From: a virus
Reading direction: 5' to 3' (one strand)
DNA: 20,434 bases
IMG/VR virus record: IMGVR_UViG_3300030104_002552
Span: 1 to 20,434 of that record
Part shown: piece by piece, positions 47 to 20,434 of the stretch
How positions within the stretch are numbered: the stretch's first letter is position 1
How the letters are laid out: every line of letters starts with the position of its first letter
Position numbers and translations under genes: made by a program
The notes under the pieces: generated by a model
Told to the model about the DNA's origin: nothing
Database searches by the model: none
The model's input: the letters and a program-made list of their open reading frames with translations, nothing else

Positions 47-370
47 TTATTTATCTCTTGCACTCTTTTTATTATGACAGCTAGCACATAAGGCCTGTAA
101 ATTATTTATTGACCATACAGCACCGCCTTTGTTAATAGGTGTAATATGATCAATAGTATTAGCTGATGTATATATTCCTTTTCTCTCACAATGTACACAG
201 ATAGGCTGTTTATGTAGTATCATCTTTCTTAACTTGCGCCATTGTCTGCTGTTATAGATATATTTGTTTGTGTCAGTCATACCTTTAAAGGCTTCCTGTT
301 TATCTTTAACATAAGTACTCCTAGCCTTAACTGCTAATGTGCTTCTATTTCCTTTAGGTATATTAGGCAT
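47..370 (-). CDS. HNH endonuclease (107 aa)
   Basis: A single-metal nuclease of the HNH class. The zinc-binding pairs C58-C61 (ICVHC) and C95-C98 (CASCH), the active-site DH (D74, H75, in TIDHITPI), N89-N90 and H99 are all present. Stand-alone HNH proteins of this size next to terminase genes take part in DNA packaging (HK97 gp74 is the model), where they work with terminase to cut the genome. It begins with the ATGCCTAA overlap with the preceding gene. It is the last gene at this window edge; if the ends join, terS follows within about 200 bases. Confidence 0.92.
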   Translation of the reverse strand: MPNIPKGNRSTLAVKARSTYVKDKQEAFKGMTDTNKYIYNSRQWRKLRKMILHKQPICVHCERKGIYTSANTIDHITPINKGGAVWSINNLQALCASCHNKKSARDK

Positions 371-725
371 CTTCTAACTTATCTAATACCATGCTTATTA
401 AGTTCTCCATCTTTTGCTTATAGTATTCTTTAAATGATAGCATGCTATTCTCTTGCTGATGCAGTAAGTACAATGCCTCTCTTAGTCTTTGGCTGTGGCT
501 TTTGCCTCTAATATCCTTTAGCTCTTTGGTAGTCTTTTCTATTACATCTTTCTGCTCATCGCTTATATCTCCTGTAGATAGTAATAATAATACTTCCTTT
601 CTCCTAAAGCTAAACAGCTCAGCACATTTAGCTGCATCTATTTCAGGTGTGCCAAATGTAAGCTTTAAAGTACCATCAGCACGAGTAGCTATTGCTTCTA
701 ATCCAGCTGGTAAAGTAATTATCAT
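363..725 (-). CDS. Hypothetical protein (120 aa)
   Basis: The N-terminal segment MIITLPAGLEAIATRADGTLKLTFGTPEIDAAKCAELFS contains two beta strands, followed by a helix (RRKEVLLLL) and charged helices to the end (DEQKDVIEKTTKELKDIRGK; QENSMLSFKEYYKQKMENLISMVLDKLE). Proteins with this beginning are frequent in Bacteroidota phages but have no known role. It overlaps the membrane-protein stop as ATGA and the HNH start as ATGCCTAA. Its place just before HNH and terminase suggests a packaging or transition role, but that is guesswork. Confidence 0.78.
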   Translation of the reverse strand: MIITLPAGLEAIATRADGTLKLTFGTPEIDAAKCAELFSFRRKEVLLLLSTGDISDEQKDVIEKTTKELKDIRGKSHSQRLREALYLLHQQENSMLSFKEYYKQKMENLISMVLDKLEDA

Positions 726-1024
726 ATAGTGCTTATTGTGTCAATTAGTGTCATTACATCTTCATTAGTAATAACCCCTAATAGCCTACCCAATACTATG
801 AGGCCTGTGATTATATACATTATCATCTTAGGCCAATTAACTAAACCCTCAGCATTATAACCATCATCCTTAATATTATTCTTTATTTCAGTAATTACAT
901 TACCAAATGGTAAGGCTGGTATTATACCTTTACCTATTTCTTTTATAAGGCTTTTTATTTTCATCCTTTTTTTTTTAGGTGTTGTTGTTTTTTTTGTTCC
1001 TTTTTTTTTAGTGTATTTTGCCAT
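722..1024 (-). CDS. Membrane protein with lysine-rich N-terminus, second holin candidate (100 aa)
   Basis: The first 25 residues are almost all K and T (MAKYTKKKGTKKTTTPKKKR). One membrane helix (MIMYIITGLIVLGRLLGVI) covers about residues 67-85, after an amphipathic part (IGKGIIPALPFGNVITEIK). This layout is like small holin or membrane-anchored proteins of Bacteroidota phages. Its location between VRR-NUC and the terminase side is away from the DUF5675 gene. Its coding strand carries A-runs of 9, 8 and 10, a stretch prone to ribosomal or polymerase slippage and to sequencing error. Function is not established. Confidence 0.7.
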   Translation of the reverse strand: MAKYTKKKGTKKTTTPKKKRMKIKSLIKEIGKGIIPALPFGNVITEIKNNIKDDGYNAEGLVNWPKMIMYIITGLIVLGRLLGVITNEDVMTLIDTISTI

Positions 1025-1406
1025 GTGTTCTATCGTTTAAAAAATAATTTTCAAGTGTTTCAATACATTCATCATAACCCTTACAAACTACAGCTAAATA
1101 TCCACGATCTAATAAATCATCAATCCAATCTTTCTGTAATTGGCTAGGGTAGCAGTTTTTATTTAATTTTATTTCTATAAATAATCCAAAATAACCGCCT
1201 CTAGCTGAACAAATTTGTAAATCAGGAAAACCAGCAACATATCCTGTAGCTTTTGCTTTTTTTCTTTGGCTTATGTGCTTTTGGTATTGTCCTCCTAAGC
1301 TAGCACAATATCTAACATAAGGCCAACGTCTTTTAATATAATTTACAACAAATGTTTGCAGCTCTGCCTCTGTTTTATAGCTTATTGTTCCAGCCTTTAA
1401 CTTCAA
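1008..1406 (-). CDS. VRR-NUC family nuclease (132 aa)
   Basis: A PD-(D/E)xK nuclease of the virus-type replication-repair class. The catalytic set is visible: E14 in KTEAELQ, GFPDL (D62), IEIK (E78, K80), and the Q-W helix QLQKDWIDDL after it. The size (132 aa) is typical of stand-alone VRR-NUC proteins in phages, which process branched or flap DNA in replication, recombination or packaging. It overlaps the gene before by 32 bases and the gene after by 17. No missing catalytic residue is seen. Confidence 0.9.
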   Translation of the reverse strand: MKLKAGTISYKTEAELQTFVVNYIKRRWPYVRYCASLGGQYQKHISQRKKAKATGYVAGFPDLQICSARGGYFGLFIEIKLNKNCYPSQLQKDWIDDLLDRGYLAVVCKGYDECIETLENYFLNDRTHGKIH

Positions 1407-2151
1407 TTTTTATATGTTTTAAAATATCATCTATTTTATGATATAAAGCCACGCATGAAGCATACATTTTAGTAGTACGATGGCTCATTACCTCCTCTAT
1501 ATTTACCCTCTCGCCCTCAGATCGCCTTTTTTTAAGCCCTTTAACCCAATATTTCTCAGCTTCTTTTTTGTATTTTTTTATTTCAGCTTTTGAGAGCTTA
1601 ATATATTTCAAATTCCAAAAATGATTAAATATAGCATAAGTAGCCCAATCAATTTTAGGCTCTGTCATTGTCTTTCTCTCCTCTACATAGGGATTAATAC
1701 AATTTTCAATAAATTGTTGCTCTATTTCGCTAATTTCTGCCTCTGTTGGCTTTTTTTCCTGTTTACTCATATTACTGCTTTTAAAGTTTTTTATTTTTTT
1801 TGCTTTATATGTTTTATAGGCTGTTAATACTTTGCCCATAGTAATAGCATCTAATTTCTGAAACATCTCTAAACCTAAATCACCAGCTACTGCTAATCTA
1901 AAAGCATGTTTTATTTCATTTGTGCTAAAATTACTAAAATTTTTTAATATCACTCCATTTAGTACACTCTCCTCTAATTCATTAAGCTGATTATCCTTTT
2001 TAACATTAAGCAATACATACAGGTAATTTACCAGCTCTATTATCTTCTCAGGACTATCTAAATGCTTAATTCTTTGCTCTCTATAATCCCTACTATAAAC
2101 TAACTCCAAAGGTGCGCTTTGTGTCGAAATCGCTAGCTCGTTTTTTTTCAT
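1375..2151 (-). CDS. Hypothetical protein of the replication module (258 aa)
   Basis: A helical, lysine-rich protein. Notable segments are [20 protein letters not shown], the region [28 protein letters not shown] and the charged middle [22 protein letters not shown]. No catalytic motif is recognised. ORFs of this kind commonly follow the replisome organizer in Bacteroidota phages, so a role as helicase loader or replication accessory is possible. The ATG at 2151 creates a 59-base overlap with the upstream gene; no other Met lies near the start, and the N-terminal residues look coding, so I keep it. It overlaps the next gene by 32 bases. Confidence 0.75.
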
Positions 2152-2671
2152 TTTTCTGTGTGGTTAAGTTATCTCTCTTTAGCCAATTTTTAGCTGTTAA
2201 ATACAAGTTTTTATATTTAGTATTTCCTTTATAATTTTCAATTTGATCTAAAATATCATTAACCTGTTGTTTATCATACTCACTAATTAACTTATTATAA
2301 TCATCTAAATTAATTTGTAAGTGTGCAAACTTCCTATATATATTTTCATTAACATTAACATTATCATTTACATTAACATTATCATTTACATTAGGTTTTG
2401 GTTTGGTTAGCTTTTGGTTTCGTTTTGGTTTTGGTTTGGTTTTAGTTTGGTTTGGCCTACCTCCTTTTTTACTATTTTCCCAGCGTTTGTGGTTAGCATC
2501 TAACTGAGGCTTTATAAGGCTAAATAAAGCTTTTTGTACAGGCTCAAGTTCTAGCTCTTTACGATCTAGCGCATAACTGCAAATAGCATAATATAAATCT
2601 GCGGCCTGTTCAGTTGTTAAACTTTTTGTGGCCTCAAAAAATGACCTGTAAAATATAAAACTATCCCTCAT
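2093..2671 (-). CDS. Phage replisome organizer / DnaD-like protein (DUF6291-like, 192 aa)
   Basis: Predicted to open the origin and load the host helicase. The N-terminus [36 protein letters not shown] and [28 protein letters not shown] match DUF6291. The linker is low complexity: a K/P/T/Q-rich part, then [17 protein letters not shown]. The C-terminal part ([32 protein letters not shown]) resembles the helical end of replisome organizers. It overlaps the methyltransferase by 11 bases and the next gene by 59 bases in another frame. The repeat-rich DNA of its linker is a candidate replication origin. Confidence 0.78.
2347..2394. repeat. Tandem 18-bp repeats in the replication gene
   Basis: The plus-strand unit CATTAACATTATCATTTA occurs twice in perfect tandem (2353-2370 and 2371-2388), with partial copies on both sides. 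It encodes the repeated NVNDNV segment. The repeat is AT-rich, as expected of a melting region next to iterons, but can also be explained as coding low complexity. Confidence 0.85.
2394..2455. repeat. TTTGG/TTTTGG cluster, candidate origin element
   Basis: About eight copies of TTTGG or TTTTGG occur within 62 bases on the plus strand, encoding the KPK/TKP-rich linker of the replication protein. They could act as binding sites (iterons) for the protein encoded around them, as the lambda origin lies within gene O. The paired G residues could also form a weak two-layer quadruplex. This is inferred from pattern only. Confidence 0.5.
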
Positions 2672-3314
2672 ATTTAAGTTTTTTTTCAGTTGCTGTTATT
2701 ATTTCCAAACATAATTTATAAGGTATTTTAGACCTTTCATAATTACCTTTTTTGCCCTGTGTACCTAAACCATTATTTGTTCCTCTAGGACACTTATCAT
2801 GATGACAATTTTTATTACCATTAAAGCATTCTGCTTTTGGCTGCCAGCCATAAAGATTAAATATGTTTCTTATGTTATTGCTCCATATATCAGTAGGCTT
2901 TGCAGCATTATCTCCATATTTACAATACCAAATTGTAATTTTTGGTAAACCTAACATAAATGGCTGTTTTCTAAGTAAGCCTCTAGGATTCTCAATGTAA
3001 TACATACATTTATAATAAGATATTAAATTCAATACATTTTTAACTAACTTATCAGACTTATAAGCAAAATGTGAAATAGGTTTATCTGTAGGCCTATGAA
3101 ATCTTATACCAGCTATTGAGTAAGTAGTACATGGAGGAGATGCCCATATCATATCAGGGCTAAAAGGTATTAAATCAGGTGTGAGCTGTTCAATATCTAT
3201 AGCTAAATTAATACCCTCAAATTTTTGTATATCAACGCTAAAAACCTCATGCCCTCGCTCCTCTGCTACTTTGCCTATGCTTCTAGATCCTGCAAACAAT
3301 TCAAGAATTTTCAT
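2661..3314 (-). CDS. Cytosine-C5 DNA methyltransferase, short phage form (217 aa)
   Basis: Transfers a methyl group from AdoMet to cytosine C5 in DNA. Motif I is [20 protein letters not shown] (the FAGxG loop has S in place of G: FAGSRS); motif IV with the catalytic cysteine is ASPPCTTYS (C62); a motif VI-like ENPRG stands at 108-112 in place of the usual ENV. A Cys/His-rich segment (C163, C170, H171-H172, C175) near the C-terminus could bind metal. At 217 aa it is shorter than stand-alone Dcm enzymes (about 320 or more), so the target-recognition region is reduced. It is probably a protective modification enzyme; no partner nuclease lies beside it. Confidence 0.85.
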
Positions 3315-3609
3315 AATTTCCTTTTTTTATTACATCCTCTTTTAGCATATAAATCATATCTGTAATAGCATCATAAAGCTGATTTATAAAAACTTTATTC
3401 TGTTTCAGGTAGTCCTCATCAATTACATTTTCATACATTTTAAATGTATTTAAGACTAAATTAAATCTCTTTTTTACTATTCCTGAATGAGTACCTTTTA
3501 AATTATATAGCTGCTCGTTTAAGCTCTTAAATGTGGCCAAAATAATTAATGTATTAATAGTTTCATCTATATTATTTTTCTTATCTTTGGCTTCTAGTAT
3601 TTTTTTCAT
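3301..3609 (-). CDS. Hypothetical protein (102 aa)
   Basis: A helical protein with basic N-terminus (MKKILEAKDKKNNIDETINTL), a hydrophobic helix (LIILATFKSLNEQLYNL) and two further helices (VLNTFKMYENVIDEDYL, FINQLYDAITDMIYMLKEDV). No motif is recognised. It follows the hairpin after the HTH gene and overlaps the methyltransferase by 14 bases, so it belongs to the same transcript. The gap upstream (about 33 bases) is the only one in this part of the module. Confidence 0.75.
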   Translation of the reverse strand: MKKILEAKDKKNNIDETINTLIILATFKSLNEQLYNLKGTHSGIVKKRFNLVLNTFKMYENVIDEDYLKQNKVFINQLYDAITDMIYMLKEDVIKKGNYENS

Positions 3610-3638
3610 AATCTAAATATTAGTATTTCTATTCAATT

Positions 3639-3664
3639 AACCCTAGTCTTTACTAGGGTTTTTT
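3639..3664 (+). terminator. Intrinsic terminator facing the plus strand (perfect 9-bp hairpin)
   Basis: AACCCTAGT and ACTAGGGTT form a perfect 9-bp stem with a 4-nt loop. On the plus strand it runs straight into T6; on the minus strand it is followed by AATTGAATAG, with no U-tract. It therefore reads as a terminator for plus-strand transcription, although every gene in the window is on the minus strand. It may alternatively stabilise or process the minus-strand mRNA. Confidence 0.65.
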
Positions 3665-3804
3665 GTTATTATAAACTTTACGCCATCAATCTCAATAGCC
3701 TTAACTACATTGTTCTTTATCCAATTATAGACAGCTGTAGTGCTAACTCTTTGCTCATGTGCGTAAGTTTGCACCGATATTAAATTATCTGTATCTACTT
3801 TCAT
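3643..3804 (-). CDS. Small helix-turn-helix DNA-binding protein (53 aa)
   Basis: ATG at 3804 lies two bases after the SSB-like stop and gives 53 codons to a TAG at 3643. The core LISVQTYAHEQRVSTTAVYNWIKNN is a winged-helix/MerR-excisionase type HTH: a helix, a turn with S/T, and a recognition helix TAVYNWIKNN, then a two-strand wing (VVKAIEIDGVKFIIT). Such proteins act as small regulators or excisionases in phages; without an integrase here, a regulator is more likely. The stop codon is inside the hairpin at 3639-3660. The candidate operator at 4763-4780 could be its site, but this is only proximity. Confidence 0.75.
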   Translation of the reverse strand: MKVDTDNLISVQTYAHEQRVSTTAVYNWIKNNVVKAIEIDGVKFIITKNPSKD

Positions 3805-3806
3805 AA

Positions 3807-4265
3807 TTAAAATGGTAAATCTGCTGTTTCTTTTTTGTTTTTCTTAACTTGCTTGTAATCTGTATTCATAACCCAGCTCACAAACACATCAGCTAGCTTT
3901 AATATAGCCTCTGCATCATCTCGCTGCACACATTCAACAGCTGCCTTTAAACAGCTTTGTTTTACAATCATTTTCTGTACATCATCGCCACGCTGAGCTT
4001 TTTGTATGTTATTAAAATTGCCATCTCTACTAGGCGAAGCTTTAAAATTATATACAGGTTTTATTTTAGGGAATTTAGGCTTAGATATATCATAAATATA
4101 ATCTACCTGAGCGCCCTCAACAAAATGTGATTGATTTGCGCTAACACTATTATACTCGCCTACATCGCCATTCTCCATTTCTACCTCATACTTATAGAAA
4201 GTTTTACCTTGAAATTCAAATGTGCCATTAGCCTGAACAGACTTTACTATACTATTTTTTTCCAT
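3807..4265 (-). CDS. SSB-like single-stranded DNA-binding protein (152 aa)
   Basis: Residues 1 to about 72 look like a compact OB-type barrel (SIVKSVQANGTFEFQGKTFY, YEVEMENGDVGEYNSV, VEGAQVDYIYDISKPKFPKIKP). A helical middle follows (DVQKMIVKQSCLKAAVECV, AEAILKLADVFVSWVM). The last residues, KKETADLPF, match the acidic-then-DLPF/DIPF tip of bacterial SSBs that recruits partner proteins, though the tip is less acidic than in host SSB. Its place first among the recognisable replication genes fits. I am confident in the general class but less so in the exact family. Confidence 0.65.
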   Translation of the reverse strand: MEKNSIVKSVQANGTFEFQGKTFYKYEVEMENGDVGEYNSVSANQSHFVEGAQVDYIYDISKPKFPKIKPVYNFKASPSRDGNFNNIQKAQRGDDVQKMIVKQSCLKAAVECVQRDDAEAILKLADVFVSWVMNTDYKQVKKNKKETADLPF

Positions 4266-4383
4266 CTTTATTTAATTTTAGAGTATTTAATTGTTTAATT
4301 GTTAAATGATAAGGCGCATAAGTAATATGATTCCAATTACCTAATTTTTGCAGCCTTTTAATGTTTTCTAATACTTTATTCAT
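4252..4383 (-). CDS. Very small protein of unknown function (43 aa)
   Basis: ATG at 4383 opens a frame of 43 codons, beginning MNKVLENIKRLQKLGNWNH and ending NKDGKK. It overlaps the preceding ORF by eight bases (ATGAATAA) and the SSB-like gene by fourteen. The overlaps on both sides and the otherwise gene-free DNA support it; nothing in the sequence suggests a function. Confidence 0.5.
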   Translation of the reverse strand: MNKVLENIKRLQKLGNWNHITYAPYHLTIKQLNTLKLNKDGKK

Positions 4384-4546
4384 CTTCTACTAATTTAATT
4401 AGATCCTGATTAAGTTTTAACGCTCTCTGTAAGTTGTTGAGCTGTCCGTTATCTCTACCACCTATACTAGAAATACAGGCAACATTAATAAGGCTGATTA
4501 ATTCGAGCTGTTGGCTCTTTAGTTGTTTTAGCATTTTCTTTTTCAT
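4376..4546 (-). CDS. Small protein of unknown function (56 aa)
   Basis: ATG at 4546 opens a frame of 56 codons ending TAA. The product is largely helical: a basic start (MKKKMLKQLKSQQLE), a short hydrophobic segment (LISLINVACISSIGG) and a C-terminal helix (LNNLQRALKLNQDLIKLVEDE). It begins 4 bases after the terminator T-run. The stop overlaps the next ATG in the 8-nt form ATGAATAA. No family is recognised. Confidence 0.6.
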   Translation of the reverse strand: MKKKMLKQLKSQQLELISLINVACISSIGGRDNGQLNNLQRALKLNQDLIKLVEDE

Positions 4547-4549
4547 AAT

Positions 4550-4577
4550 CAAAAAAATTAAGGAGGCCTAAGCCTCC
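4550..4577 (-). terminator. Intrinsic terminator after the first early ORF
   Basis: GGAGGC and GCCTCC form a 6-bp GC-rich stem with a TTAG loop (4562-4577), followed on the minus strand by TTAATTTTTTT. The stop codon of the 56-aa ORF lies in the loop, so ribosomes finishing that ORF would cover the hairpin and could lower termination. This gives a natural partial terminator coupling translation of the first ORF to expression of the downstream genes. Confidence 0.82.
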
Positions 4578-4738
4578 ATGTTAAATGCTTCCATTTTAAT
4601 ATCGTGAATAATTAAAATCATTTTTTCATTTCCTAATTTAAATGCTGAAGATTGCATTGCTTTGCAAGCATCAATAAAAGATAAATTTAATTCTTTTGCT
4701 AATTTTTTAATTTCTAGTTTTAGTTGTGCCTTGTTCAT
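4568..4738 (-). CDS. Small protein, first gene after the early promoter (56 aa)
   Basis: ATG at 4738 opens a frame of 56 codons ending TAG within the terminator hairpin. The N-terminal half is basic and helical (MNKAQLKLEIKKLAKELN) and is followed by a second helix (SFIDACKAMQSSAFKLGNEKM) and a hydrophobic end (ILIIHDIKMEAFNMEA). I do not recognise a family. Being the first gene of the module, with its own terminator directly after it, it would be made early and at a higher level than the genes behind. Many early phage proteins of this size act on host processes, but no function can be assigned from sequence. Confidence 0.6.
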   Translation of the reverse strand: MNKAQLKLEIKKLAKELNLSFIDACKAMQSSAFKLGNEKMILIIHDIKMEAFNMEA

Positions 4739-4762
4739 AATCTGTTGTTTTTATTAGTTTGA

Positions 4763-4780
4763 TGTTGTAAATGTACAACA
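4763..4780. promoter_or_regulatory. Perfect inverted repeat over the -7 box (candidate operator)
   Basis: TGTTGTA and TACAACA flank a 4-bp centre, an 18-bp perfect dyad that covers the entire -7 box. A protein dimer bound here would block RNA polymerase. The only small HTH protein in the window is encoded at 3643-3804 downstream, so autoregulation is possible but not shown; a host regulator is equally possible. Confidence 0.55.
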
Positions 4781-4798
4781 ATAAACTTAACTACCAAA
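4768..4798 (-). promoter_or_regulatory. Bacteroidota-type promoter for the early/replication module
   Basis: The minus strand has TTTG (4798-4795), a 19-bp spacer, then TACATTTA (4775-4768), one mismatch from the consensus -7 box TAnnTTTG. The known spacer range is about 17-23 bp. Transcription would start about 4760 and run into the 56-aa ORF at 4738. It is the largest non-coding gap in the minus-strand gene array between the late and early modules. Confidence 0.6.
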
Positions 4799-4828
4799 CT
4801 TTTTTTAATTTTTTTTTAATTTTTTTTT
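4799..4828 (-). promoter_or_regulatory. Phased A-tracts (intrinsic curvature / UP-like element)
   Basis: On the minus strand three A-tracts of 9, 9 and 7 residues, separated by TT, are centred near 4824, 4813 and 4803, about one helical turn apart. Phased A-tracts bend DNA. They abut the -33 element of the promoter below, where an alpha-subunit-binding UP element or bent DNA would raise promoter strength. They also overlap the last codon region of the metallophosphoesterase gene. Confidence 0.65.
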
Positions 4829-5681
4829 ATTTAGCTCTTGTAAACTCGTGTTTGATTTTCATGTTTTCATAGTAGAATCTGAGCCACCATGCGCCTAATG
4901 GCTTGGGACTTCTTCCCCTTTCTCTATGGAAATTTTCCCCTTGTAAATACTCCTCTTTGTATGTAGGTAGACAAACATGAGTTTGTTCATCTAAATATAA
5001 ACTTCCTTGCTGATTAATTCGCTCTCTGCTTATTGTCATTAGCCAGCTCTGATGTATGTGGCCACTAACACATATATTAGCATCAGGTAAATAAACTGCC
5101 TTTCTGTTTGTTTGAATTACGCCTTTAGTAACAGGAGAAGATCCTCCATAGCCATGAGTAAAATTAAGAATAACAGGCGTAAGCCTAGAGCTTCCTGATG
5201 CTTTTTTAAAGCTAAATTTTACATAGCCTGTATAAAGCCCTTTTGTAAGCTTTGTGCCATTCTTATAATTTAATGTAGTAACAAAGCGCTCTATTAAATC
5301 TGTTTCATGATTTCTCCTTATAGCGCTCTCATGGTTTCCCTCAGCTACAAGTGCAAACATATCAGCATAAGGGCTAAACCAATCTACAGCTGTATTAACT
5401 ACAGCATCCAAATAATTATCAACCTGATGAATAGCTCTAAGGTCTGTCTTTGAGGCTCGCCTATCATATTTGCCTTGCATAACACAAAATAAATCTCCAA
5501 AATCAAGTATTTTAGCATTTCGCTCTCTTGCCTTGTCTAAATGTGTTTTTTGCAATTTCCAATCTGAATGTGGATTGTCCCAATGCCTATCAGATGAAAG
5601 TAGATACCACTGCTCCCAGCCAGCTTTATATTCATGGTCAATAACTAATACTTGTGGACTTATTCTTTTTATTTTAGGCAT
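4827..5681 (-). CDS. Calcineurin-like metallophosphoesterase (284 aa)
   Basis: All five metal-binding blocks of the superfamily are present in order: SSDRHWDN (D31, H33), DFGDLF (D63), AEGNHES (N116, H117), FTHGYGG (H176) and SGHIHQS (H208, H210). It is thus predicted to be an active two-metal phosphoesterase. The substrate is unknown: nuclease (SbcD/Mre11-like), nucleotide or cyclic-nucleotide phosphodiesterase and protein phosphatase are all possible. The first block, D-R-H-W-D-N, differs from the usual D-x-H by its tryptophan and asparagine, a variant I associate with phage copies. It sits at the end of the late operon rather than with replication genes, and its stop lies against the regulatory node before the early module. 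Confidence 0.88.
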   Translation of the reverse strand: MPKIKRISPQVLVIDHEYKAGWEQWYLLSSDRHWDNPHSDWKLQKTHLDKARERNAKILDFGDLFCVMQGKYDRRASKTDLRAIHQVDNYLDAVVNTAVDWFSPYADMFALVAEGNHESAIRRNHETDLIERFVTTLNYKNGTKLTKGLYTGYVKFSFKKASGSSRLTPVILNFTHGYGGSSPVTKGVIQTNRKAVYLPDANICVSGHIHQSWLMTISRERINQQGSLYLDEQTHVCLPTYKEEYLQGENFHRERGRSPKPLGAWWLRFYYENMKIKHEFTRAK

Positions 5682-14524: not shown

Positions 14525-15093
14525 TACCAAATATAATTTTTATATTGTGTTATTATATGCTTATAACCTAAAGGCATTTCATCCACTTTTAAATAGCTTA
14601 CAGGGCTTCTATTGTCATAAAAATGTTGGATAAGCATATACATCGCTATTTTTAATGTTCTAACTACATCCGCATTTTGTGGCTCTACATCATATTGTAT
14701 TGATAAAGCATTAGCTCTGTCATACATTGTAAATGTGTTGTAAAATTGTACCACAGGAAGCCCATGATTATAGCTAATTTTATAATCAGTTTGATCCGTT
14801 AGCGATTGGCTAACATTATTTGCATCTGCATATTTAATAATTGGATTATTAATTTTACCAGCATAAGACAAACATAAAACATCATTTTCAGGCCAATCTC
14901 TATAATACTCTGTTATAGTAGTATCTACTACAACCTGATTAGTATCTTTTAGCACTTGCATACGAGCTATCTTTATAAGCTCTGTGATATAAGAATCATC
15001 ATCATTAGTTGCTACTCTCAAATAATCTTTTGCCTCTTGTAGGCTAATTAATTCAGTCCCTGTATATAAATCTACTTTCGCCTGTTGTGCCAT
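14524..15093 (-). CDS. Head-tail connector (gp6-like adaptor)
   Basis: Binds the portal and forms the first ring of the head-tail interface. The N-terminal pattern SLQEAKDYLRVATNDDDSYITELIKIARMQV is the classic start of the gp6/Phage_connect family (an LxEAKxxLR helix, then a DD-containing turn, then a long helix). The C-terminus DVVRTLKIAMYMLIQHFYDNRSPV is the matching second helical part, and the 189-aa length is within the family's range. It is the first gene after the capsid terminator. Its stop TAA shares a base with the ATG of the next gene (TAATG). Confidence 0.88.
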   Translation of the reverse strand: MAQQAKVDLYTGTELISLQEAKDYLRVATNDDDSYITELIKIARMQVLKDTNQVVVDTTITEYYRDWPENDVLCLSYAGKINNPIIKYADANNVSQSLTDQTDYKISYNHGLPVVQFYNTFTMYDRANALSIQYDVEPQNADVVRTLKIAMYMLIQHFYDNRSPVSYLKVDEMPLGYKHIITQYKNYIW

Positions 15094-15112
15094 AGTTTTT
15101 TTTTTATAAAAA

Positions 15113-15140
15113 AAGGGAGTAGGAATTAACCCACTCCCTT
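15113..15140 (-). terminator. Intrinsic terminator after the capsid gene
   Basis: On the minus strand, AAGGGAGT and ACTCCCTT form a perfect 8-bp stem around a 12-nt loop and are followed directly by a run of T residues. It starts 21 bases after the capsid stop and lies upstream of the connector gene at 15093. Since no obvious promoter follows, it probably acts as a partial terminator that lowers expression of connector and tail genes relative to capsid. Confidence 0.85.
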
Positions 15141-15161
15141 ATAAATCAATCAAATTACTAA

Positions 15162-16448
15162 TTAAGAATCAGTATCTACAAAGAATGAGAACGCTTTATC
15201 AGGTCTCGCCACCAATCCATCTAATAGATTAGTAATAACCAAGCGCCCTATACCTCTTGATGCAGTTGTATATGGATCGTATAAAATACTCATACCTCCA
15301 AACTGACCTAAGTGTATATCACTCATATCTCCAAATAAAACATAATCTCCAGCGCCAGCTGATCCATTTGCTGCTTTACCTAAGTTAGAAGATACTTTGA
15401 ATGGATAAGTGTTTATAGTCTTTTGGAAATTGTCCATGTAACCATCAACATAATTATTAGATGCTAAGCCTTTAGCAGCACCTAAACCACTTGCATTAAA
15501 TATGTACGCCATTCTAGCAGCAGACGGATTAACATCATTTGCTAAAACATTAGCCTCACAGTTTAGCACATCTTCAATAGCCATAGCTGTAGCGCCTGTT
15601 GTTCCTGTAGCAGCATCTAAAACAGCTTTAAATATTGAATCAGGCCCTTGTGCGCCTGTTGTAGATGTTTGGTCTGCTGCTGCAAGTAAGTTAGCCTCAA
15701 ATTGAGCCATAACTGCTGTAGCTAAATTACGCTGTAGAGCTGCCTCTACTGCTGGGTTTTGCTCCATCAATTCAGCGCTCATAGATGCTAAAGAAATAAT
15801 TTTCTTTGGAGAAAGGTCTTTCTTAGTTATTGCACCACTTTCAGCTGCTTCCGTTGTTCCTGATGTGTAGCCACTTTCAGAAACAAATGATGCAGTACAT
15901 GAGCCAACAATAGGAAATCTGCGATCTGCTTGTAAGCCTGTGTAAAAGTTAGCTCCAGCTGATGCTAAAACAGAATTTGCTTGTAACTCATCAATAAAAG
16001 ATGCTACTTCAATCCCTTTAGCATTTGCAGCTGTGTTTAAAGCTCTACTTTCTAAAACTGCTGATGGAATAGCAATACCTCTATACATAGCGTTTGGCGC
16101 TTCGTTTCTAGCTTCCTGATCCATCTCTTTTACAATACCCTCTACCACTCCTGTATAAGCTGCTTTTGCTGCTGCTCCAAAAGAGAATTTTCTAAGGTCT
16201 TTGTCAGTTTCTTTTACATCTTGCGTAGAAAATGATACAGGTGTATTGTTTTTAGCTAGCTCTAAAGAACGCTCTAAGCGATCAATTCGAGATGCTAAAT
16301 CGTTTACATTTTTTTCAGTAGCATCAAAAGCCTTTTGCTCATCTTCTGTTAAATTACGATCTTCAGCCTCTGCTACATTAATAAGAGCTGTCATTTCATC
16401 TAATGAAACTTGGCGCTCCTCTCTTAGTTGCTTTAGTGTTTTGTTCAC
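15162..16448 (-). CDS. Major capsid protein, HK97 fold, with N-terminal delta domain
   Basis: The shell protein. Residues 1 to about 70 are charged and helical with heptad character (LKQLREERQVSLDEM, EDEQKAFDATEKNVNDLASRIDRLE), matching the delta/scaffolding domain that the protease removes. From about residue 125 the sequence follows the HK97 capsid fold, with FRRFPIVGS-like and EMAELMEQNP-like positions visible as ADRRFPIVG and SMSAELMEQNPAVEAAL. At 428 aa it is normal for the family. The start codon is GTG at 16448, overlapping the protease stop; no in-frame ATG lies near it, and the family start (MNKTLKQLREER) fits. A strong intrinsic terminator follows the stop, the usual arrangement for a very highly needed product. 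Confidence 0.94.
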   Translation of the reverse strand: MNKTLKQLREERQVSLDEMTALINVAEAEDRNLTEDEQKAFDATEKNVNDLASRIDRLERSLELAKNNTPVSFSTQDVKETDKDLRKFSFGAAAKAAYTGVVEGIVKEMDQEARNEAPNAMYRGIAIPSAVLESRALNTAANAKGIEVASFIDELQANSVLASAGANFYTGLQADRRFPIVGSCTASFVSESGYTSGTTEAAESGAITKKDLSPKKIISLASMSAELMEQNPAVEAALQRNLATAVMAQFEANLLAAADQTSTTGAQGPDSIFKAVLDAATGTTGATAMAIEDVLNCEANVLANDVNPSAARMAYIFNASGLGAAKGLASNNYVDGYMDNFQKTINTYPFKVSSNLGKAANGSAGAGDYVLFGDMSDIHLGQFGGMSILYDPYTTASRGIGRLVITNLLDGLVARPDKAFSFFVDTDS

Positions 16449-20270: not shown

Positions 20271-20400
20271 TATCAAATATTATCCCTACATAAAGAATTA
20301 AAAAAAACAAGCGTAATTCAATTACATTAACATCCTCAATTTCATCAATAGTAACCCCTACGCAAAAGCCTTTAATTAAAGCAAATTCAATATGTATCAT
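20263..20400 (-). CDS. Small hydrophobic protein overlapping terS (45 aa)
   Basis: An open frame of 45 codons starts with ATG at 20400 and stops with TAA at 20263-20265. It overlaps the small-terminase start by eight bases (ATGGGTAA), the same junction form used at five other gene boundaries here, which is the main reason to believe it. The product (starts MIHIEFALIKG, ends YVGIIFDNG) alternates hydrophobic and polar residues with an acidic middle (DEIEDVN), more like a small beta-rich protein than a clear membrane helix, although residues about 29-42 are very hydrophobic. Small unassigned ORFs between HNH and terS genes are common in Bacteroidota phages. The function is unknown. The frame stays open upstream of the ATG to the window edge, so a longer form cannot be excluded from this window alone. 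Confidence 0.55.
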   Translation of the reverse strand: MIHIEFALIKGFCVGVTIDEIEDVNVIELRLFFLILYVGIIFDNG

Positions 20401-20434
20401 AAAACTCTTATTTTTGCACGCATAAAAAGAAGTT
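20397..20434 (-). other. Possible 3' end of an upstream ORF (8 codons visible)
   Basis: A reading frame with ATG at 20423 runs eight codons (MRAKIRVL) and stops with a TGA that overlaps the ATG of the next small ORF as ATGA. The frame is also open to the window edge, so this may be the tail of a longer gene or only a short leader peptide coupled to the next ORF. If the two window ends join, a stop lies in frame shortly upstream and only a tiny ORF is possible. Little more can be said. Confidence 0.25.

Follow-up and report, generated by a model that had tools for sequence, protein, structure and literature searches.

Between the late and the early genes of a viral contig lies a short non-coding gap that raises a simple question: is it an early promoter, or an early promoter that is held in check by a product of its own operon? 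A preliminary description of this DNA had seen curved DNA, a promoter and an operator-like inverted repeat here, and had proposed repression or autoregulation and the role of an early switch. Our analysis of the sequence moderately supports a promoter with an operator, probably under autoregulation. For the full reading, an early promoter with negative feedback by the helix-turn-helix (HTH) protein of its own operon, we would put the chances at about even.

The genome and its probable early promoter

The window, by which we mean the whole stretch of viral DNA that was analysed (20,434 bp), has all of its substantial genes on the minus strand. The terminase, portal, protease, capsid, head-tail and tape-measure genes are on the right side, and small early genes and an HNH gene on the left. 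For comparison 17 related contigs were read whole or nearly whole, and the gene order is largely common to the window and these relatives. Several related contigs share a start, CTTCTTTTTATGCGTGCAAAA, a few bases from the end, and a finishing point after the HNH gene. Given this common start and finish, the contig ends are probably real termini and the window is probably a complete linear genome of ~20 kb with fixed ends. At 1-46 and 20400-20434 the related contigs start or stop at nearly identical bases. A 7-bp dyad, TCTACAG-N8-CTGTAGA, at 2-23 is incompletely kept in relatives, and a terminator-like hairpin (GGGAGT...ACTCCC-TTTTTTT, 15093-15162) is found right after the major capsid gene. 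Named phages gave no DNA-level match; the TerL of the window is only ~40% identical to those of very many phages, and its 284-aa protein is 39% identical to a protein of one Rhodobacteraceae phage.

The promoter match is found on the minus strand at 4768-4798 and is of the Bacteroidetes type, TTTG-N19-TACATTTA. It lies between a 284-aa metallophosphatase/exonuclease-like gene (4827-5681, minus strand), which is the last gene ahead of the promoter, and the gene at 4568-4738. In minus-strand order, this gap holds A-tracts, TTTG, 19 bp, TACATTTA and a 25-nt leader. The published consensus is TTTG/TAHHTTTG (PMC6847099, and PMC9723704 for the -7 box). The -33 element TTTG (4795-4798, minus strand) is present in most relatives and stands at about 19 bp from the -7 box, as in Bacteroidetes sigma-A promoters. 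The -7 element TACATTTA (4768-4775, minus strand) agrees with every fixed position of the consensus box except the G at -5, which is nearly invariant in Flavobacterium promoters (PMC6847099). The A found there belongs to the dyad discussed below and points to a weaker or traded-off promoter; relatives of the type that we call B carry the full consensus box, TAACTTTG. Published numbering puts the -7 box at -12 to -5 (PMC9723704), and the predicted transcription start is therefore the A at 4763 (minus strand), a sequence-derived position within the range of 4755-4763 that had been proposed. The leader, ACATCAAAC...AACAGATT, covers 4739-4763 on the same strand.

How distinctive is this site? No other match of this kind lies in a non-coding gap of the window. 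Across nine genomes of the clade, intergenic sites like this on the coding strand are essentially limited to the early promoter; relative G012 has a second such site in the same gap, and G007 and G012 have one weaker candidate each elsewhere. An E. coli-type promoter scanner made no call at the TTTG/TACATTTA site, because this is not a sigma-70 site. The described promoter sequence between the late and early genes, with its 19-bp spacing, is confirmed, and the region is probably the early promoter and the only host-type promoter of the phage. From the promoter type alone, the host is probably a member of the Bacteroidota. As part of the overall reading we would describe this small (~20 kb), uncultured virus as a virulent phage of Bacteroidota. 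Host RNA polymerase would start at about 4763 and transcribe the early operon leftwards and, were the virion DNA circularised via its ends, the same transcript could run on into the terminase and structural genes.

The A/T-rich region upstream does contain the three A-tracts at one-turn spacing that had been described, with lengths of 7, 9 and 9 bp (4800-4806, 4809-4817 and 4820-4828, minus strand) and centres 10-11 bp apart. The idea that the curved DNA is a special or conserved element did not survive. The predicted bend, computed with wedge parameters, is 41 degrees per 41 bp, which is the 94th percentile of an AT-rich window with a maximum of 67. The three-tract pattern is found only in the window and G007, and in G002 and G003 the region is bent no more than average. 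We therefore rejected curvature as a functional element.

Behind the promoter is an exchangeable gene, which in the window encodes 56 aa (4568-4738, minus strand). All type-A genomes, the window's own type, and G004 have a small gene, differing by genome, between the promoter and a conserved 58-aa gene; type-C genomes have one or two genes in this slot, and G001, G002, G003 and G005 have none. The leader motif AACAGATTATG is the conserved 5′ border of the slot and, at the other end, a terminator-like hairpin, GGAGGC-TTAG-GCCTCC followed by TTAATTTTTT (4562-4577, minus strand), overlaps the stop codon of the 56-aa gene; both borders are common to most genomes. In eight cassettes the stop codon is inside the hairpin, which gives proteins that otherwise differ a C-terminus of -EA or -GA. 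The slot (4562-4738) is also seen in contigs L060, L064, L065, L067, L068, L057, L061 and L062. Placed directly after the early promoter, it resembles a moron slot. At L113:2201 and L037:7584, in otherwise different contigs, a similar promoter is followed by a first gene that resembles those exchanged in G011 and G016, a pattern that suggests the promoter and the gene were transferred horizontally together. Between the slot hairpin and the next gene no further promoter was seen, so this terminator-like hairpin must be read through, perhaps since ribosomes would reach the stop codon in its loop.

The dyad over the -7 box and its counterparts in relatives

The inverted repeat that had been described is confirmed as perfect, TGTTGTA-CATT-TACAACA (4763-4780), with 7-bp arms and a 4-bp loop, and it is centred on the -7 box rather than in the -33/-7 spacer, unlike a MerR-type site. 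What relatives share is only the 6+4+6 core, GTTGTA-N4-TACAAC at 4764-4779; conservation does not reach the outermost pair of the 18-bp repeat. This dyad is probably an operator. A perfect inverted repeat might also act at the RNA level as a leader hairpin, and we rejected this idea as extremely improbable, given that the 5′ arm is upstream of the predicted start at 4763 and would be outside the transcript.

A more serious alternative is a plain early promoter with no operator, where the dyad would simply result from the TA..TA box together with an inherited initial-transcribed sequence, and where the co-variation described below would reflect ancestry or joint recombination. Dyads of this size are not, as such, rare in a window this AT-rich: it has 34 with 7-bp arms and loops of 0-8, compared with 24.5 +/- 7 in dinucleotide shuffles. 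Locally, some 7-bp dyad is found in 33% of shuffles of the intergenic region, and one with at least two G/C per arm in 3.7%, and any TAnnTTTA box supplies two of the seven pairs by itself. In addition, TTTACAACATCAAAC occurs without the 5′ arm at other promoter-like sites (L037, L050, L143 and L096). The 5′ arm GTTG is itself rare outside the clade. Other searches were set aside: the exact 17-mer TTGTACATTTACAACAT is found in 22 viral contigs, which are mostly chance matches in coding sequence plus the clade itself, and a wider 15-mer, like a promoter pattern conditioned on the 3′ arm, gave mostly unrelated sites.

The relatives are more informative. Three promoter types occupy the same gap. 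Type A (the window, G007, G011, G012, G015 and G016) has GTTG-TAMATTTA-CAAC, five relatives thus sharing the dyad core of the window; in G012 the neighbouring spacer has diverged and GTTG is kept. Type B (G001-G005) has TGTT-TAACTTTG-AACA, with AGTT in G005, and type C is found in G008 and G009. The upstream 284-aa gene is 79-94% identical throughout, and ~90% identical across differing promoter types. On a tree of the neighbouring early genes, well-supported branches force every one of the four gains or losses that type A needs, and the promoter has therefore been exchanged or replaced often in this clade. That the promoter type is exchanged in G001-G005 would also fit a plain promoter. As an 18-bp unit the dyad is not conserved, which in part counts against the preliminary description by its own standard: it is replaced in close relatives, but the replacements are mostly symmetric about the -7 box and change with the recognition helix of the HTH protein.

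This symmetry extends to some of the distant phages with the same early gene (L350, L324/L330/L482, L351/L356, L318, L319/L320 and L202). L350, with an HTH protein 53% identical to that of the window, has GTTGTA-N4-TACAAC at two promoters of one genome; these copies (L350:2754-3420) are 630 bp apart, each ahead of a small gene. L324/L330/L482 have GTG-TAACTTTA-CAC and L351/L356 have TGTT-TATCTTTG-AACT. The pair next to the box is G-C in type A and L324, and T-A in type B. Type C and L318 have only two pairs, and L202 and L319/L320 have no symmetry centred on -7. Other dyads in types B and C that are not centred on -7 (GTTAAATGTTTAAC and AGTTTTAAATTTAAAACT) are AT-rich and broken in sisters, and were not counted as evidence.

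At least three consecutive flank pairs around the -7 box are found in 9/14 distinct HTH-linked promoters and in 1/18 other intergenic sites of the same or related phage contigs, these controls being promoter-like sites rather than proven promoters (Fisher p 0.0006; Mann-Whitney p 7e-5). When the 3′ flanks were shuffled among promoters, 0/5000 shuffles reached the observed count. That the symmetry recurs with other sequences, in type B and in L324/L482, argues against a plain promoter.

The HTH protein and its recognition helix

The dyad overlaps the core promoter of the operon that encodes a 53-aa winged HTH protein (3643-3804, minus strand), a probable promoter regulator. Its gene is the fifth of the early operon and has the same direction as the promoter. 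Behind the slot the operon (47-4552, minus strand) encodes proteins of 58, 43 and 152 aa, the HTH protein, a methyltransferase, a DUF6291 protein, resolvase-like and HNH proteins, and others. The HTH protein has no Pfam match. Its AlphaFold model (pLDDT 83) has helices at residues 11-17 and 22-30, the latter being the recognition helix, and a beta wing at 36-46. The best PDB match with Foldseek is Pukovnik Xis (TM 0.72, probability 1.00, E 0.06), and Pukovnik Xis and BldC are among the first matches (E 0.06-0.15). The modelled fold would be that of Xis, BldC and RdfS, which we take as a fold match rather than proof of kinship. A conserved hairpin across the HTH stop codon (3639-3660, minus strand), with paired changes in relatives and no sense-strand T-run, is kept in both promoter types (CCCTAGT/ACTAGGG, GCCCTAA/TTAGGGC and ACCCTAG/CTAGGGT).

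Does the helix follow the promoter? The helix is VSTTAVYNWI in type A (5/6), V[SA]V[TQ][ST][VI]YRWI in type B (5/5), TTQCIYNW in type C, [VS]MT[IV]YRW in L351/L356 and TTASVYRW in L324. Over 23 pairs, promoter distance correlates with recognition-helix distance at r 0.42 and with the rest of the protein at 0.07 (partial Mantel p 5e-5), the helix residues for this test being picked after inspection of the alignment. Over 17 collapsed lineages, where helix 22-30 of the model was used, the values are 0.31 and 0.07 (p 0.003). The best single residues in the former test are 22, 27 and 24, all inside the model helix; in the latter, residue 45 comes second after 22. Among 2867 variable columns of 21 proteins, HTH residues 22 and 27 are among the six best for promoter type. 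These results support co-variation of the -7 surroundings with residues 22, 24 and 27 of the recognition helix, while the remainder of the protein does not follow the promoter.

Individual genomes make this concrete. The HTH protein of G012 is 55% identical to that of the window, yet has the same helix, VSTTAVYNWI, and the same dyad. G001 is the closest kin of the window (91% over the early proteins), but differs in both helix and promoter. The exception is G016, where a type-A promoter is found with a type-B helix. Phylogenetically independent comparisons are few (two concordant and one without change), which leaves room for ancestry or joint recombination behind a plain promoter. The genes between the promoter and the HTH gene (clusters 14, 21 and 11) follow promoter type less than the helix does, which speaks against that explanation; on balance we consider a plain promoter rather unlikely.

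A repressor encoded by the host could also own the dyad. The dyad promoter is present in L113, a 10-kb fragment of a different phage in which no HTH homologue was found, as a host operator would allow. If the site belonged to the host, however, no variation with the helix of a phage protein would be expected, and two scans of genome contigs for host or prophage copies of the early gene or the HTH gene found none. We regard a host repressor as very unlikely.

Proteins that occupy positions -12 to -5 usually keep RNA polymerase away. With the HTH gene fifth in the operon and the site at -12 to -5, negative feedback is the simplest reading. Once enough HTH protein is made, it would bind the sequence centred on the -7 box, shut RNA polymerase out and so limit early transcription. 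The same protein might instead be an activator or an architectural protein that spreads on A/T-rich DNA in the manner of BldC or Xis, with the -7 region as one of several half-sites, possibly direct repeats. The fold matches binders of direct repeats and A/T-rich DNA, and type-B promoters do have GTTWAAW repeats 7 bp apart. That said, no one-turn-spaced repeats are evident by eye in type A, the co-varying part sits at the -7 box, and sites there usually block the polymerase; this makes an activator or architectural role quite unlikely.

Autoregulation is therefore supported by the helix co-variation and by the enrichment of symmetry at -7. Counting against it are G016, the few independent comparisons, the asymmetric L202 and L319/L320, the mere two pairs of type C and L318, the preference of known proteins of this fold for direct repeats over palindromes, and the L113 dyad with no HTH homologue. 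The early switch of the preliminary description, if meant as a two-state decision, finds no support. The genes of the window that were searched, all but some small ORFs, include neither an integrase nor a CI-like repressor, no integrase is evident in the gene order shared by relatives, and lysogeny genes and divergent promoters of the lambda CI/Cro type were not found in the window or relatives. For a ~20-kb genome of this kind, a single master promoter with negative feedback reads better than a lysis-lysogeny switch.

The operator and the recognition helix may have changed together in relatives, giving at least three specificity types. We tentatively suggest, as a somewhat doubtful extension, that, in a phage clade lacking lysogeny genes, an excisionase-type protein has been repurposed as an early repressor with heteroimmune-like specificity types, where the -7 operator and helix are exchanged or re-evolve together between near-identical genomes, perhaps to escape repression by co-infecting relatives. 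If true, this would offer a directly testable case in which operator and repressor co-evolve outside temperate phages, within a group of uncultured phages; it comes with natural pairs (window/G001 and G016/G003) where promoter and helix have changed together or apart. It would also give an Xis-type protein a role in a phage without an integrase, and provide matched promoter-regulator pairs for Bacteroidota genetics.

Comparison with known systems

The promoter resembles the Bacteroidetes sigma-A promoter (TTTG / TANNTTTG) in its -33/-7 elements, 19-bp spacing and AT-rich upstream region, and differs in the A for the nearly invariant G at -5 and in the dyad over the box. Lambda Cro and the operators of heteroimmune lambdoid phages are a known case of early-promoter feedback, where several operator types are matched by recognition-helix types. 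In contrast, the window has no CI, divergent promoter or lysogeny genes, its HTH fold is another one and it has one site.

Small winged HTH proteins with early promoters as their targets are also known from phages, among them the dual excisionase/repressors Cox of P2, Apl of phage 186 and their relatives; pR and pL, the early promoters of phage 186, are repressed by Apl (PMC7498355). The window shares the small winged HTH fold with the Xis/Cox/Apl proteins, but not a partner integrase in the same element, and it has one promoter rather than facing pR and pL. Proteins with the fold of Apl, Xis and BldC mostly form head-to-tail multimers on direct repeats, not palindromes (PMC7498355, PMC11963761). 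The repeats of Apl and Cox are 10-11 bp apart, whereas the site in the window is symmetric at -7, and by analogy such a symmetric site would set this HTH protein apart from Apl, Xis and BldC.

Another parallel for the proposed role is RdfS of ICEMlSymR7A, an Xis-like winged HTH protein with the same fold, which represses its own promoter and binds over the -35/-10 (PMC11963761). RdfS works in excising an integrative element, and no consensus can be recognised for its binding, whereas the site in the window co-varies with the helix. The components are of known kinds; what is unusual is that operator and helix types are matched in a phage that lacks lysogeny genes.
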